Source of the DNA: Desulfovibrio sp.
GTDB taxonomy: Bacteria; Desulfobacterota; Desulfovibrionia; Desulfovibrionales; Desulfovibrionaceae
Length of the DNA: 15,015 nucleotides
Direction of reading: 5' to 3'
Assembly: GCA_022837365.1 (NCBI GenBank)
Contig: JALHHV010000018.1
Location: forward strand, 9,578 to 24,592
Shown here: in pieces, positions 11,293 to 15,015 of the stretch
How the letters are laid out: every line of letters begins with the position of its first letter
Position numbering within the stretch: position 1 is the first letter of the stretch
Program-made: the position numbers and the translations under genes
The notes under the pieces: model-generated
What the model was told of the DNA's origin: nothing
Database searches by the model: none
The model's input: only the letters and a program-made list of their open reading frames with translations

Positions 11293-11326
11293 CTCGGTCG
11301 AATACGATAAGAGTATGCGTTGCGGT

Positions 11327-11365
11327 CCTCATCCGTAAGGCTCGAAGACTCGCCAACGGCTGAGG
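11327..11365 (+). repeat. Internal hairpin unit 2 of the inverted-repeat element
   Basis: CCTCATCCGT (11327-11336) pairs with ACGGCTGAGG (11356-11365). Compared with unit 1, the fourth pair has changed from T-A to C-G on both sides, a compensatory substitution that keeps the stem. Confidence 0.65.
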
Positions 11366-11449
11366 CACTCCCTCATGGCAGGCTTGTTTTCCTCGCCAAC
11401 GAACGAAAATCCTAATTTGGAAACAGCCCCTAGGGGGAGAAAGAACGGC

Positions 11450-11503
11450 GGCGTGGTTCGTATCGACCCGGTCACGCTGCCCGGAAGAAGCCGGGTTGAC
11501 GCC
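11450..11503 (+). ncRNA. Possible structured leader RNA or small RNA before a terminator
   Basis: Complementary segments could form a three-way junction: GGCGT/ACGCC (11450-11454 with 11499-11503) closing GGTT/GACC (11455-11458 with 11465-11468) and CCCGG-AAGAAG-CCGGG (11480-11495). A strong terminator hairpin follows 12 bases later. The pairings are short and the region is GC-rich, so this is only a candidate. It matches no riboswitch class that I can name with confidence. Confidence 0.25.
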
Positions 11504-11515
11504 ATGATGACACAC

Positions 11516-11545
11516 GGGGAAGGGTCGCGAGGCCCTTCCCCTTTT
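11516..11545 (+). terminator. Intrinsic terminator upstream of modBC
   Basis: GGGGAAGGG (11516-11524) pairs perfectly with CCCTTCCCC (11533-11541) across an 8-nt loop, and TTTT follows. It probably ends the roo transcript, which would then include the inverted-repeat element, and insulates modBC. Confidence 0.82.
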
Positions 11546-11616
11546 CCGTTCACCCATCCCGGCGGGTCACGCCCCGTAAAGCCGACCGGGAAGATGCCGT
11601 GTCAGTACCCCGTGCC

Positions 11617-11646
11617 ACGGTCACCAAGACGGAACTTTTCGTGCCT
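11617..11646 (+). promoter_or_regulatory. Predicted TunR operator upstream of modB
   Basis: ACGGTCACC (11617-11625), ten variable bases, then TTTTCGTG (11636-11643) occurs here and, on the minus strand with identical spacing, upstream of tunR. Similarity continues downstream as nCTnTnTTnCC in both copies. TunR of Desulfovibrio vulgaris is reported to activate modBC through a motif of about 30 bp, which this site fits in length and position. The sequence match is direct observation; the assignment to TunR is inference. Confidence 0.72.
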
Positions 11647-11649
11647 CTG

Positions 11650-11678
11650 TTGCCCCACCCCGGCCTTTTCGCCACAGT
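11650..11678 (+). promoter_or_regulatory. Possible modBC promoter, activator-dependent
   Basis: TTGCCC (11650-11655), 17 bases, then CACAGT (11673-11678). The boxes are poor, as is common for activated promoters. Transcription would begin close to 11685, the first base of the modB ATG. The predicted TunR operator ends just upstream of the -35 box. tunR has a similarly placed pair, TTTCCT-N17-CACAAC. Confidence 0.33.
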
Positions 11679-11684
11679 CGGGCC

Positions 11685-12410
11685 ATGGATTTCCTTTCCG
11701 CCCTGTTCCCACAGTCCCCCCTGTTCGCGGCGGACACGCTGAGGGTTTCCGTCATCCTGCTCACGCTGAAGGTGGCGGGCATCGCCACGGTGGTGTCCTC
11801 GGTGCTCGGAATCCTGACGGCGTGGTGCATCGCCCGCCGCCCCTTTCCCGGCCGCACCTGGGTGGACGCCCTGTGCGCCCTGCCGCTGGTGCTGCCGCCC
11901 ACGGTCATCGGCTACTACCTCATCCTGCTGGTGGGACGGCGCGGCCTGCTGGGGCCGTGGCTGGCCGAATTCGGCATCAACCTGATGTTCTCGTGGGAGG
12001 GTGCGGTGGTGGCGGCCACGGTGGTGGTCTTTCCGCTCATCTACAAGTCCGCCCGCGCCGCGCTGGAAGCCGTGGACCACAACCTCGAAAATGCGGCCCG
12101 CACCCTGGGCGCGTCGGAATGGAAGGTGTTCCTGCGCGTCTCGCTGCCTCTCGCGTGGCGCGGCATCCTGGCCGGGGTCATGCTGGCCTTCGCGCGCGGC
12201 ATGGGCGAGTTCGGGGCCACGCTGATGATCGCGGGCAACCTGCCCGGCCGCACCCAGACCCTGTCGCTGGCCATCTATTCCGCCTTCCAGGCCGGGGACG
12301 ACGCGCAGGCGCTGGCGCTGGTCATCGTCACCTCGCTGTTGTGCATGGGCGTGCTGATACTGGCGGACAAGCTGGCCACCGGCGGTCTTTCCTTCGGCAG
12401 GGGGGCGTGA
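11685..12410 (+). CDS. modB: Molybdate/tungstate ABC transporter permease
   Basis: A 241-residue inner-membrane permease of the ModB family; with ModC and a periplasmic ModA it imports molybdate and tungstate. Several hydrophobic helices are visible, beginning at SVILLTLKVAG (~22). The EAA loop that docks on the ATPase is clear, from EAVDHNLENAARTLGASEWKVF through GMGEFGATLMIAGN. ATG 11685 is the only usable start ahead of the conserved first helix, yet no Shine-Dalgarno sequence precedes it, which suggests a leaderless or near-leaderless transcript. The TGA overlaps the modC ATG by one base (TGATG), implying coupled translation. No modA is present here; in D. vulgaris modA is reported as a separate unit. 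A predicted TunR operator lies 38 bases upstream. Confidence 0.94.
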   Translation: MDFLSALFPQSPLFAADTLRVSVILLTLKVAGIATVVSSVLGILTAWCIARRPFPGRTWVDALCALPLVLPPTVIGYYLILLVGRRGLLGPWLAEFGINLMFSWEGAVVAATVVVFPLIYKSARAALEAVDHNLENAARTLGASEWKVFLRVSLPLAWRGILAGVMLAFARGMGEFGATLMIAGNLPGRTQTLSLAIYSAFQAGDDAQALALVIVTSLLCMGVLILADKLATGGLSFGRGA

Positions 12411-13161
12411 TGATCGACGTCGCCATCACCCATCGCCTGCCCCCGGCCCGTGGGGCCAAGGGCAAGGGCTTCAAGATCGACGTGTCCTTCGCCACCGAAG
12501 ACCGCACCCTGGTGCTGTTCGGCCATTCCGGCTCGGGCAAGACCCTGACCCTGCAAGCCATCGCCGGGCTGATGCGCCCCCGCGAAGGACGCATCGTCAT
12601 CAACGGGGCCACTCTGCTGGACACGGCGGCGGGCATCGACATTCCCGCGCGCGACCGGGGCATCGGCTACGTGTTCCAGGACTACGCCCTGTTCCCGCAT
12701 CTTTCGGTGCGCAAGAACGTGGAGTTCGGCCTGGGGGCCGGGCGGCGGGCTTCCGTGGCCGGGAATGAAGACAGGGCCATGACCGGCGGCGCGAGCGGCA
12801 AACAGCGCGTGGACGAACTGCTGGAACTGTTCGAGATAGACCACGTGGCGCAAAACCTGCCGGGCAACATTTCCGGCGGGCAGCGCCAGCGCACCGCGCT
12901 GGCCCGCGCCCTGGCGACGAGCCCGCGCGCGTTGCTGCTGGACGAGCCGTTCTCCGCCCTGGACCCGCTGCTGCGGGTGCGCATGCGCAAGGAATTCACC
13001 CGGCTGTTCGCGCACTTCGACATTCCGGCCATCATCATCACCCACGACCCGGACCCCTGGTGCTGTACGAGGACGGCCGCATCCGCCACCGCCTGAACTT
13101 CCGCGAACTGCGCGCGGAAGGAAAACCGGCGCTAGGGCTGCTGATGACGTTGATGGGGTAG
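12410..13161 (+). CDS. modC: Molybdate/tungstate ABC transporter ATP-binding protein, frameshifted near the C-terminus
   Basis: The cytoplasmic ATPase partner of ModB. A G-rich Shine-Dalgarno (AGGGGGG, 12399-12405) precedes the ATG, which overlaps the modB stop; GTG 12407 is an alternative start. Walker A is GHSGSGKT (residues 38-45), followed by the Q-loop FQDYALFPHL, the signature SGGQRQR, Walker B LLLDEP and the switch histidine in ITHD. Immediately after HDPD the frame fails: translation as written runs into PWCCTRTAASATA and stops at 13096. The expected tail LVLYEDGRIRHRL... continues in another frame from 13057 to the TAG at 13159-13161. The normal ~8-residue helix between HDPD and LVLY is missing, consistent with loss of about 22 bases. 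No C-terminal TOBE domain is present; the Mop-type domains of this locus are in tunR. Confidence 0.9.
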
Positions 13162-13196
13162 CACCCCGTCCGGCCTCCACGTTTCCGTCCACTGTT

Positions 13197-13232
13197 CCCG
13201 TCCGGCCATGCGCGTCAACATGGCCGGGCGGG
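13197..13232. repeat. Strong stem-loop between convergent modC and tunR
   Basis: The arms 13197-13210 and 13219-13232 pair over 14 bp with a single U-G wobble; the core is CCGGCCATG/CATGGCCGG with an 8-nt loop. There is no T tract on either strand, so it may be a processing or pausing structure rather than a classical terminator. Confidence 0.5.
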
Positions 13233-13320
13233 CATCCCCACCCGGCGCGCTGCCTCGCGCGTCCGGTTTCGCACGGGCCTTCGGGCACCACCCGTCGTCC
13301 GCCCGTCCGCCCCTCCATGT

Positions 13321-13358
13321 GAAAGCGCCGCCATCCCCGCAAGGACGGCGGCGCTTTC
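13321..13358. terminator. Bidirectional terminator hairpin between modBC and tunR
   Basis: GAAAGCGCCGCC (13321-13332) pairs perfectly with GGCGGCGCTTTC (13347-13358), and an inner TCC/GGA extends the stem. Because the arms begin with GAAAG and end with CTTTC, the hairpin reads the same way on both strands, with a short T run inside the 3' arm. Its place between convergent genes fits a shared terminator, though no long T tract follows on either side. Confidence 0.6.
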
Positions 13359-13402
13359 CGCAGGCGGGCGGCGTTGCGCCCCCGGATACGGCATGCGTCG
13401 CG

Positions 13403-14734
13403 CTACTCCACGTTCAGGATCACCGAAAATGCCTTGAACATCACCAGGATGTCGGTGCCCGGCTCCAGGTCCAGCGCCTTCACGCTTTCCACGGTCAGCA
13501 GGGCGCACACGGTGGTGCCCTCGGGCAGGTCCACCACCACCTCGGCGGCGATTTCGGAAAGGTTCACCCGCGCCACCTTGCCCGCGTAGCGGTTGCGGGC
13601 GCTGGTCTTCAGCCGGTTTTCCTCGCGGGCCAGGATCACCCACGGGGCCTTCACCGTGGCGGTCATCACCTTGCCGGTGCCCACGCCAAGGTTCTGGGCG
13701 CTTTCCTCGGTGATCACCGAAACCACCTTCAGGCCGCTGTTGGTGGTCAGTTCCACCTCCACGAGCAGCCCGTCCTTGACGACGGACGTCACCCTGCCGG
13801 TGAACGCGTTGCGCGCGCTGGTCTTCATCCTGGTCTCCTTGTTCAGGTAATGATGCACGATACGCCGTACGTCATCATCTGAAAAGCGCAGGTAGTTGGC
13901 CGTCTGGTTCATGCTCTGATGGCCCAGGATGCCCTGCACGATCTTCAGCGGCACGCCGCCGCGCAGCAGTTCCACGGCCCGCGAATGCCGGATGACGCGC
14001 GGGTTCAGGTATTCCTTGGGGATGGAGCATTCCGCCGCGCGCTCGTAGAACTTGCGGCGCACGTAGCCCTGGTCCATGCGGAAGACCCGCCCGCGCAGGC
14101 CGAACATCATGGGATCGTCCAGCACCCGCTGCACCTCGCGCATGACCGGCCCCGGCAGCTGGATTTCGCGCCCGCCGTGGCCGCGCACGATGGCCAGCTG
14201 GCGCACCGGGTCGAGGTCGGCGGTGTCGTCCAGGGCCAGCGCCTCGCCAAGGCGCAGCGCGCCGTGGCGCATCATCAGGAAGGCCACCCACAGCCGCCCG
14301 CGCGAACGGCGCTGCACCGGCGTGGCGGCCGCGCCGAACCAGGCGTGGAAGGTGGCCGTCAGTTCGTCGAGCTGTTCGGAGGTAAGGTGCTTGACCCCTT
14401 CCGGCACCTCGAAGCTCTGGGCCGGGCAGGGAACATCCTTTGTCCCCTGCGGCGCGGGCGGGGGATACGGCGCTTCGCCCCCGCGCCGGGCGGCCCCGCG
14501 CGGGCAGGCGGCGCCGCCACCCGTGCCCGGCGCGCCGGACAATGCGGTGACGATGGAATGCAGCGTTTCCGCGCCAAAGCCGTCCGCGCCCGCATGAGAG
14601 CCGCCGGATATGCCGGACGGGCCGGACGGGCCGCCTTGCAGGCGCGCCTCCAGTTCCCGCTCGATGCAGGCCCGCATCAGTTCCAGTTGTGTCTCGTCCA
14701 GTGCGCCGACGATTCCGGCCAAAGGAGCATGCAT
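13403..14734 (-). CDS. tunR: TunR-family regulator: recombinase-like DNA-binding domain plus two TOBE/Mop domains
   Basis: A 443-residue cytoplasmic transcription factor. The N-terminus is followed by a glycine/proline-rich linker (~35-105). A XerC/XerD-like tyrosine-recombinase domain (~115-300) comes next, then two Mop-type oxyanion-binding domains (~303-370 and ~374-443), each starting with KTSARN. TunR proteins of sulfate reducers have exactly this architecture and control molybdate/tungstate uptake, activating modBC in D. vulgaris with the effect reduced by tungstate. Of the recombinase catalytic set, Arg161, Arg249, His272 and Tyr281 can be aligned, but the HxxR histidine is Arg246. GGAGG lies ten bases before the ATG. 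The gene is convergent with modBC, and its upstream region carries the same predicted operator as modB, suggesting autoregulation. It is unlikely to be a mobile-element integrase: no attachment site or phage gene is near. Confidence 0.9.
   Translation of the reverse strand: MHAPLAGIVGALDETQLELMRACIERELEARLQGGPSGPSGISGGSHAGADGFGAETLHSIVTALSGAPGTGGGAACPRGAARRGGEAPYPPPAPQGTKDVPCPAQSFEVPEGVKHLTSEQLDELTATFHAWFGAAATPVQRRSRGRLWVAFLMMRHGALRLGEALALDDTADLDPVRQLAIVRGHGGREIQLPGPVMREVQRVLDDPMMFGLRGRVFRMDQGYVRRKFYERAAECSIPKEYLNPRVIRHSRAVELLRGGVPLKIVQGILGHQSMNQTANYLRFSDDDVRRIVHHYLNKETRMKTSARNAFTGRVTSVVKDGLLVEVELTTNSGLKVVSVITEESAQNLGVGTGKVMTATVKAPWVILAREENRLKTSARNRYAGKVARVNLSEIAAEVVVDLPEGTTVCALLTVESVKALDLEPGTDILVMFKAFSVILNVE
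13406..13828 (-). CDS. Possible internal translation product: free di-Mop (molbindin-like) protein
   Basis: Inside tunR and in the same frame, codon 303 is an ATG preceded by AAGGAG and a six-base spacer, a better ribosome site than that of tunR itself. Starting there gives a 141-residue protein, MKTSARNAFTG..., consisting of just the two Mop domains. Free molbindins, which bind molybdate or tungstate and store or buffer it, have this length and a similar MKTSARN-type beginning. The site and frame are seen directly; expression is inference. It may be only a relic of the fusion that created tunR. Confidence 0.42.
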
Positions 14735-15015
14735 GGTCGATCTGCCTCCGCAGTGTCGTTGCCGCCGCCACCCTGCCGGAAGTTGTGGTCGGTTTTCGCC
14801 GGAAAGGAAATACAGTCACGAAAATACCAACCCAGGTGACCGTGTTGCGCGCCGTCCGGGCAGCGGCTACCCGGAATATGGAAGGAGCCCCGGTCGCACG
14901 TGCCTGCCGCGCCGGTGCCCCGACGAGGTCCGGCCCGGAATGCGCACCGGGCCGGCACCCCCGTGCCGCCTTTCTCCCCCCGGAACGCCCAACCGGCAGC
15001 CCTCCGGCCCCGTGG
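14735..15015. other. Upstream region of tunR; no gene seen
   Basis: This 281-nt edge region holds the tunR ribosome site (GGAGG, complement of 14745-14749), a weak promoter-like pair on the minus strand (TTTCCT at 14810-14805, 17 bases, CACAAC at 14787-14782) and the predicted TunR operator. Further out are hairpins TCCGGG/CCCGGA (14855-14875), CCGGCCCGG/CCGGGCCGG (14930-14955) and GGCAC-CCCC-GTGCC (14954-14967), followed by CGCCTTTCT. The last may be part of a terminator, but no gene reads into it within the window. Confidence 0.5.
14814..14843 (-). promoter_or_regulatory. Predicted TunR operator upstream of tunR
   Basis: On the minus strand, ACGGTCACC (14843-14835), ten bases, then TTTTCGTG (14824-14817), the same blocks and spacing as upstream of modB. 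This copy also contains the dyad GTCAC-N16-GTGAC (14815-14840). It ends 79 bases before the tunR ATG, consistent with autoregulation. Confidence 0.72.

Follow-up and report, generated by a model that had tools for sequence, protein, structure and literature searches.

The window, a stretch of 15,015 nucleotides from a Desulfovibrio genome of 3.3 Mb that is assembled in 589 contigs and 75% complete, carries genes of a molybdate/tungstate transporter together with a TunR-type regulator gene. The features of this locus are listed below.

11516..11541, plus strand: terminator-like hairpin with a T run, located between modB and the flavoprotein gene that precedes it (hairpin scan)
11617..11648, no strand: predicted TunR operator of modB, a 32-bp degenerate inverted repeat ACGGTCACC...TTTTCGTGCCTCT (dyad scans, genus conservation, printed motif); core GTCACC-N14-CGTGCC, 2 of 12 core positions off consensus
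11650..11678, plus strand: predicted modB promoter, TTGCCC (11650-11655), 17-nt spacer, CACAGT (11673-11678), starting one base past the dyad
11685..12410, plus strand: modB, molybdate/tungstate ABC transporter permease, possibly leaderless (Pfam BPD_transp_1)
12410..13096, plus strand: modC, ABC transporter ATPase (Pfam ABC_tran), frame broken near 13054 in the assembly
13403..14734, minus strand: tunR, tyrosine-recombinase-like domain plus two TOBE/Mop stretches (Pfam Phage_integrase 4e-11, TOBE 8e-27)
14812..14843, no strand: predicted TunR operator in the region shared by tunR and the divergent trmO-modA (27-bp pattern in 7/7 genomes); core GTCACG-N14-GGTGAC, 1 of 12 positions off consensus
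14845..14873, plus strand: predicted trmO-modA promoter, TTGCGC (14845-14850), 17-nt spacer, TACCCG (14868-14873)

The TunR sequence matched PF00589 once and PF03459 in two stretches. Among PDB sequences, its C-terminal part matched Mop/ModE and its middle part XerA/XerD. Fusion of an integrase-like domain to Mop/TOBE, a trait of TunR, was present, and so was a neighbourhood of mod genes, with modBC on one side and the divergent trmO-modA on the other. The tunR gene lies on the minus strand and faces modBC. Beyond the window end, past a run of N, a gene with a TrmO domain and modA run away from tunR (L009 4856-6135; modA overlaps the end of trmO). The preliminary description had taken modB and tunR as the only genes behind the two sites, which is wrong because trmO-modA lies divergently just past the end of the window. 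The second site is in a control region common to tunR and trmO-modA. The order modBC, tunR, trmO-modA was identical in the six genomes of the genus with the whole locus. At 13054 the modC gene is about 22 nt shorter than in the relative L047, and longer copies are found in relatives; the frame break is either a real loss or an assembly error of the fragmented genome. The hairpin at 11516..11541 is weak by itself, since three terminator-like sites were found versus 2.8 in shuffled sequences.

A long leader lies between the operator and trmO (L047 9246-10378 and L009 4395-5359). It contains a conserved GC-rich inverted repeat, recognized by eye, and an in-frame hydrophobic extension precedes the TrmO domain; trmO is an odd partner for modA. 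A riboswitch in the trmO-modA leader was considered and rejected: in six sources there was no Rfam match at the gathering score, and the seven matches below that score (L047 5700-9900) had a best E of 0.054.

The pattern ACGGTCACC-N10-TTTTCGTG occurred twice in the window with no mismatch, at 11617-11643 (+) and 14843-14817 (-). This confirmed the matched sites of the preliminary description: all 17 fixed positions are identical between the modB site and the tunR-side site, the spacing is the same and the spacers differ. When up to three mismatches were allowed, the window contained these two sites only; 200 dinucleotide shuffles, tested with a 27-bp pattern that had itself been derived from the two sites, gave a mean of 0.02 matches and none reached 2. 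The window's genome had 14 matches, two with no mismatch and 12 with exactly three, and no further match with fewer than three.

Comparison of the modB and tunR upstream regions from relatives, a check that had been proposed, showed that the sites are conserved. The modB site was exact over the 27-bp pattern in all eight genus genomes examined, and the tunR-side site in all seven in which this stretch was assembled (G136, where the tunR contig is cut, is outside this count). The spacers were nearly constant among orthologous sites, unlike between the two sites. At two mismatches or fewer the genus yielded 28 matches, 15 of which were the two known sites. The only other recurring match, present in five of the eight genomes, was inside a coding frame in one genome examined. 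A one-mismatch match, present only in G038, overlapped the beginning of a 147-aa frame. When 199 genomes of the family were searched for a wider regulon with GTCACG-N14-CGTGAC at one mismatch, the result was too unspecific for naming targets: counts exceeded the reversed control in many genomes and fell below it in others.

In other genera the element has the common form of a 32-bp inverted repeat, ACRGTCACGAAAA-N6-TTTTCGTGACYGT, with the core GTCACG-N14-CGTGAC. A matrix made from the genus sites detected related sites upstream of tunR in these genera, and several of its matches overlapped their own reverse complement, five bases off. Related dyads were found upstream of tunR, modA or modB at part of the loci; at several of 41 loci the best score near tunR was no better than in shuffled sequence. 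To judge by their bases, the window's sites at 11617-11648 and 14812-14843 are degenerate copies of the 32-bp inverted repeat, the modB site matching the core at 10 of 12 positions and the tunR/modA site at 11 of 12. The split 9-N10-8 site with a meaningful orientation, as originally described, did not hold up against this form. Because the element is an inverted repeat in other genera, the 'same orientation' of the two sites carries little weight. At four loci (L074, L077, L078 and L079) two dyads were located 59-81 bp apart upstream of tunR, the weaker one being near the shuffle level in some of them; these pairs hint at cooperative binding or autoregulation there.

The predicted modB promoter had TTGC and CACAGT at constant spacing in all eight genus genomes. 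The predicted trmO-modA promoter also starts one base past the dyad, with TTGC in 7/7 genomes; its -10-like box was TACCCG in five, TACCCC in G124 and TAGGCG in G038. The -10-like boxes of both promoters are poor matches, and a consensus scanner found no sigma-70 promoter in 11300-15015. The succession of dyad, one base and TTG was found at modB in 8/8 genomes and in the modA direction in 7/7, but in the tunR direction in 0/7. This return of the modB layout on the modA side, and its absence on the tunR side, make an operator of modA the best reading of the second site. It probably serves modA, just outside the window, rather than tunR, and its earlier assignment to tunR is most likely wrong.

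Outside the genus, 44 modA or modB upstream regions were inspected (the best 30 loci each for modA and modB, minus 16 belonging to the genus). TTG was exactly one base past the best dyad in 16 of the 44; 28 were without it, and in some modA follows modB. Twelve regions had a dyad score of at least 24, a threshold chosen after looking and applied to a score that ignores the TTG position. In 11 of these TTG was one base past the dyad, and no TTG was found at offsets 0 or 2-16 in the twelve. On the far side of the same dyads TTG at the one-base offset was seen in 0/12; in L147 it was one base earlier. Nine of the twelve dyads beat the best of their own 20 shuffles and three did not, so single weak dyads overlap chance.

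The first in-frame start codon of modB (ATG) follows the end of the -10-like box by 6 nt in all eight genus genomes, and no ribosome site was seen before the modB start. Outside the genus, nine modB promoters had the TTG layout, and three of them had 5-7 nt between the -10-like box and the start; the other six, and all seven modA promoters with this layout, had longer leaders. We propose tentatively, at somewhat less than an even chance, that TunR is a fixed-register activator whose dyad stands one base before a TTG -35 element and that it drives a leaderless modB mRNA. Such an mRNA is plausible and rests on a poor -10 match. Only this possible mRNA is a fresh lead here, and we do not claim that it is unreported; the one-base register and the leaderless start may or may not be covered by the 2013 work of Kazakov et al.

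Twenty-six further upstream regions were compared: 15 genomes with a TunR match supplied 18 of them, and seven genomes without one supplied eight. A ninth region without a TunR match, 131 bases long, was left out, and the G008 region is that of a distant modB. A best dyad of at least 24 or a TTG was found in 11 of the 18 regions from TunR-bearing genomes versus none of the eight others, numbers that are not independent evidence because the genomes are related, and some genomes without a TunR match are incomplete. Taken apart, nine of the 18 had a best dyad of at least 24 and eight had the TTG; seven had neither.

It is very likely that the two sites are TunR operators, and that TunR activates modBC and trmO-modA, less so with tungstate or molybdate. 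The prediction of a TunR-type operator upstream of modB was supported by the integrase-like and two TOBE domains of the regulator and by the fit to the printed mod motif. The recombinase-like domains of an inferred TunR dimer would grip the 32-bp inverted repeat. As the repeat ends one base before the TTG -35 element, TunR on its site would contact RNA polymerase and activate the weak promoters of modBC and trmO-modA; a site touching the -35 element from upstream would fit an activator. TunR would activate both transporter promoters when the metal is scarce, and tungstate or molybdate in the Mop domains would lessen activation and cut uptake. Binding, activation and metal response of TunR are here deduced, or taken over as reportedly described in the 2013 work.

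The alternative in which tunR has its own operator in the second site and is autoregulated from it, in the same orientation as at modB, appears rather unlikely. Past the dyad and one base, the triplet towards tunR was TTC in six genomes and TTT in one, with TTG in none of the seven. The preliminary description had noted a CACA-beginning -10-like box at both sites; this stood for modB (CACAGT in 8/8), but towards tunR it was found in only two of seven genus genomes (G000 and G066), the other five having CAAGAC. The shared extension nCTnTnTTnCC was partly common to relatives, but not in full. In favour of tunR as a target, 77 bp lie between the dyad and the tunR start in each of the six genus genomes compared, and GGAGG precedes this start. 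On the other hand, the element nearly forms an inverted repeat, and the available part of the 2004 paper (PMC545781) lists the D. vulgaris sites with modA and modBC. The second site could serve both directions at once, and tunR may be autoregulated through the common site.

Binding of the sites by a single-domain ModE-like protein and not by TunR is improbable. TunR is encoded within the locus, and the dyad was found at none of the eight mod upstream regions from genomes without a TunR match, the genomes being sorted by TunR only. The 2013 work reportedly assigned the motif to TunR. A ModE-like DNA-binding domain was detected in all eight genus genomes, with best E values of 9.5e-12 to 1.3e-13, none above the curated cut-off. 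The ModE assignment was proposed in the 2004 paper, but the motif, as given in its available part, differs from the E. coli ModE consensus (PMC545781). Still far less probable is a role of TunR as an active recombinase that flips the modBC-tunR segment by crossover at the two inverted sites. The 27-bp sites are indeed inverted relative to each other, with modBC and tunR between them, and of the residues that we take to form the recombinase set the window's TunR retains the Tyr, the GH histidine and two Arg. However, the spacers of the two sites differ, the gene order was constant in the six genus genomes with the whole locus, and the residues appear eroded: in 41 TunR-like sequences the HxxR His was kept in none, the first Arg was Lys in 20, and the Tyr was replaced in seven and kept in 34, the window's protein among them. 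The inversion switch was rejected on these grounds.

A second TunR-like gene in the window's genome (L084 1304-2392) was found divergent from a TauE/SafE (TSUP-type) transporter gene (L084 3-932), with a TAACACG-N14-CGTGTTA dyad (L084 1036-1063) between them. TAACACG is a different half-site, and the N14 spacing is unchanged. This dyad was not found in limited scans of two relatives. The 2013 work is said to describe a second, TSUP-repressing TunR group, which this arrangement would fit.

Rodionov et al. 2004 (PMC545781), in the part available to us, print CGGTCACG-N14-CGTGACCG for Desulfovibrio modA and modBC, and give the D. vulgaris sites as CGGTCACG-N14-gGTGACCG at modA and CGGTCACc-N14-CGTGACCa at modBC. 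A fused integrase-Mop gene is remarked on there in the cluster, and the motif is treated as a ModE site. In the comparison with the published motif that had been proposed, both sites of the window fitted CGGTCACG-N14-CGTGACCG. As far as that part of the paper goes (PMC545781), the mod operator of D. vulgaris and D. desulfuricans has the same inverted repeat, spacing and target genes as the window. The D. vulgaris sites even share its substitutions, CC in the modB left arm and GG in the modA right arm. The differences from the printed forms are that the modB right arm of the window, CGTGCCTC, departs from CGTGACCa at three of eight positions, and that its modA left arm reads CAGTCACG for CGGTCACG, one base off the D. 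vulgaris modA arms. Unlike in the system as described there, modA follows trmO in the window's genome. Judged from sequence, the site pair is the orthologue of the published pair and already known, motif and targets having been in print since 2004. The locus offers a clean and conserved case in which a recombinase-like protein acts as transcription factor. The analysis reassigns the second operator to its most likely target gene, and the register to the -35 element with the possible leaderless modB start makes activation easy to test.

The regulator was reportedly named TunR in the 2013 work, which is said to have assigned the motif to it and to have described it as a recombinase-like domain plus Mop domains with a motif of about 30 bp. 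In D. vulgaris, TunR reportedly binds this operator and activates modA and modBC, and tungstate lowers the activation. From the TunR family as reportedly described, no departure was found in the window's TunR. Its recombinase-like domain is related by sequence to the tyrosine recombinases XerC/XerD, whose site is two-armed and of a length similar to the TunR operator. TunR differs from XerC/XerD in that the recombinase residues appear eroded across the family and its role is in transcription.
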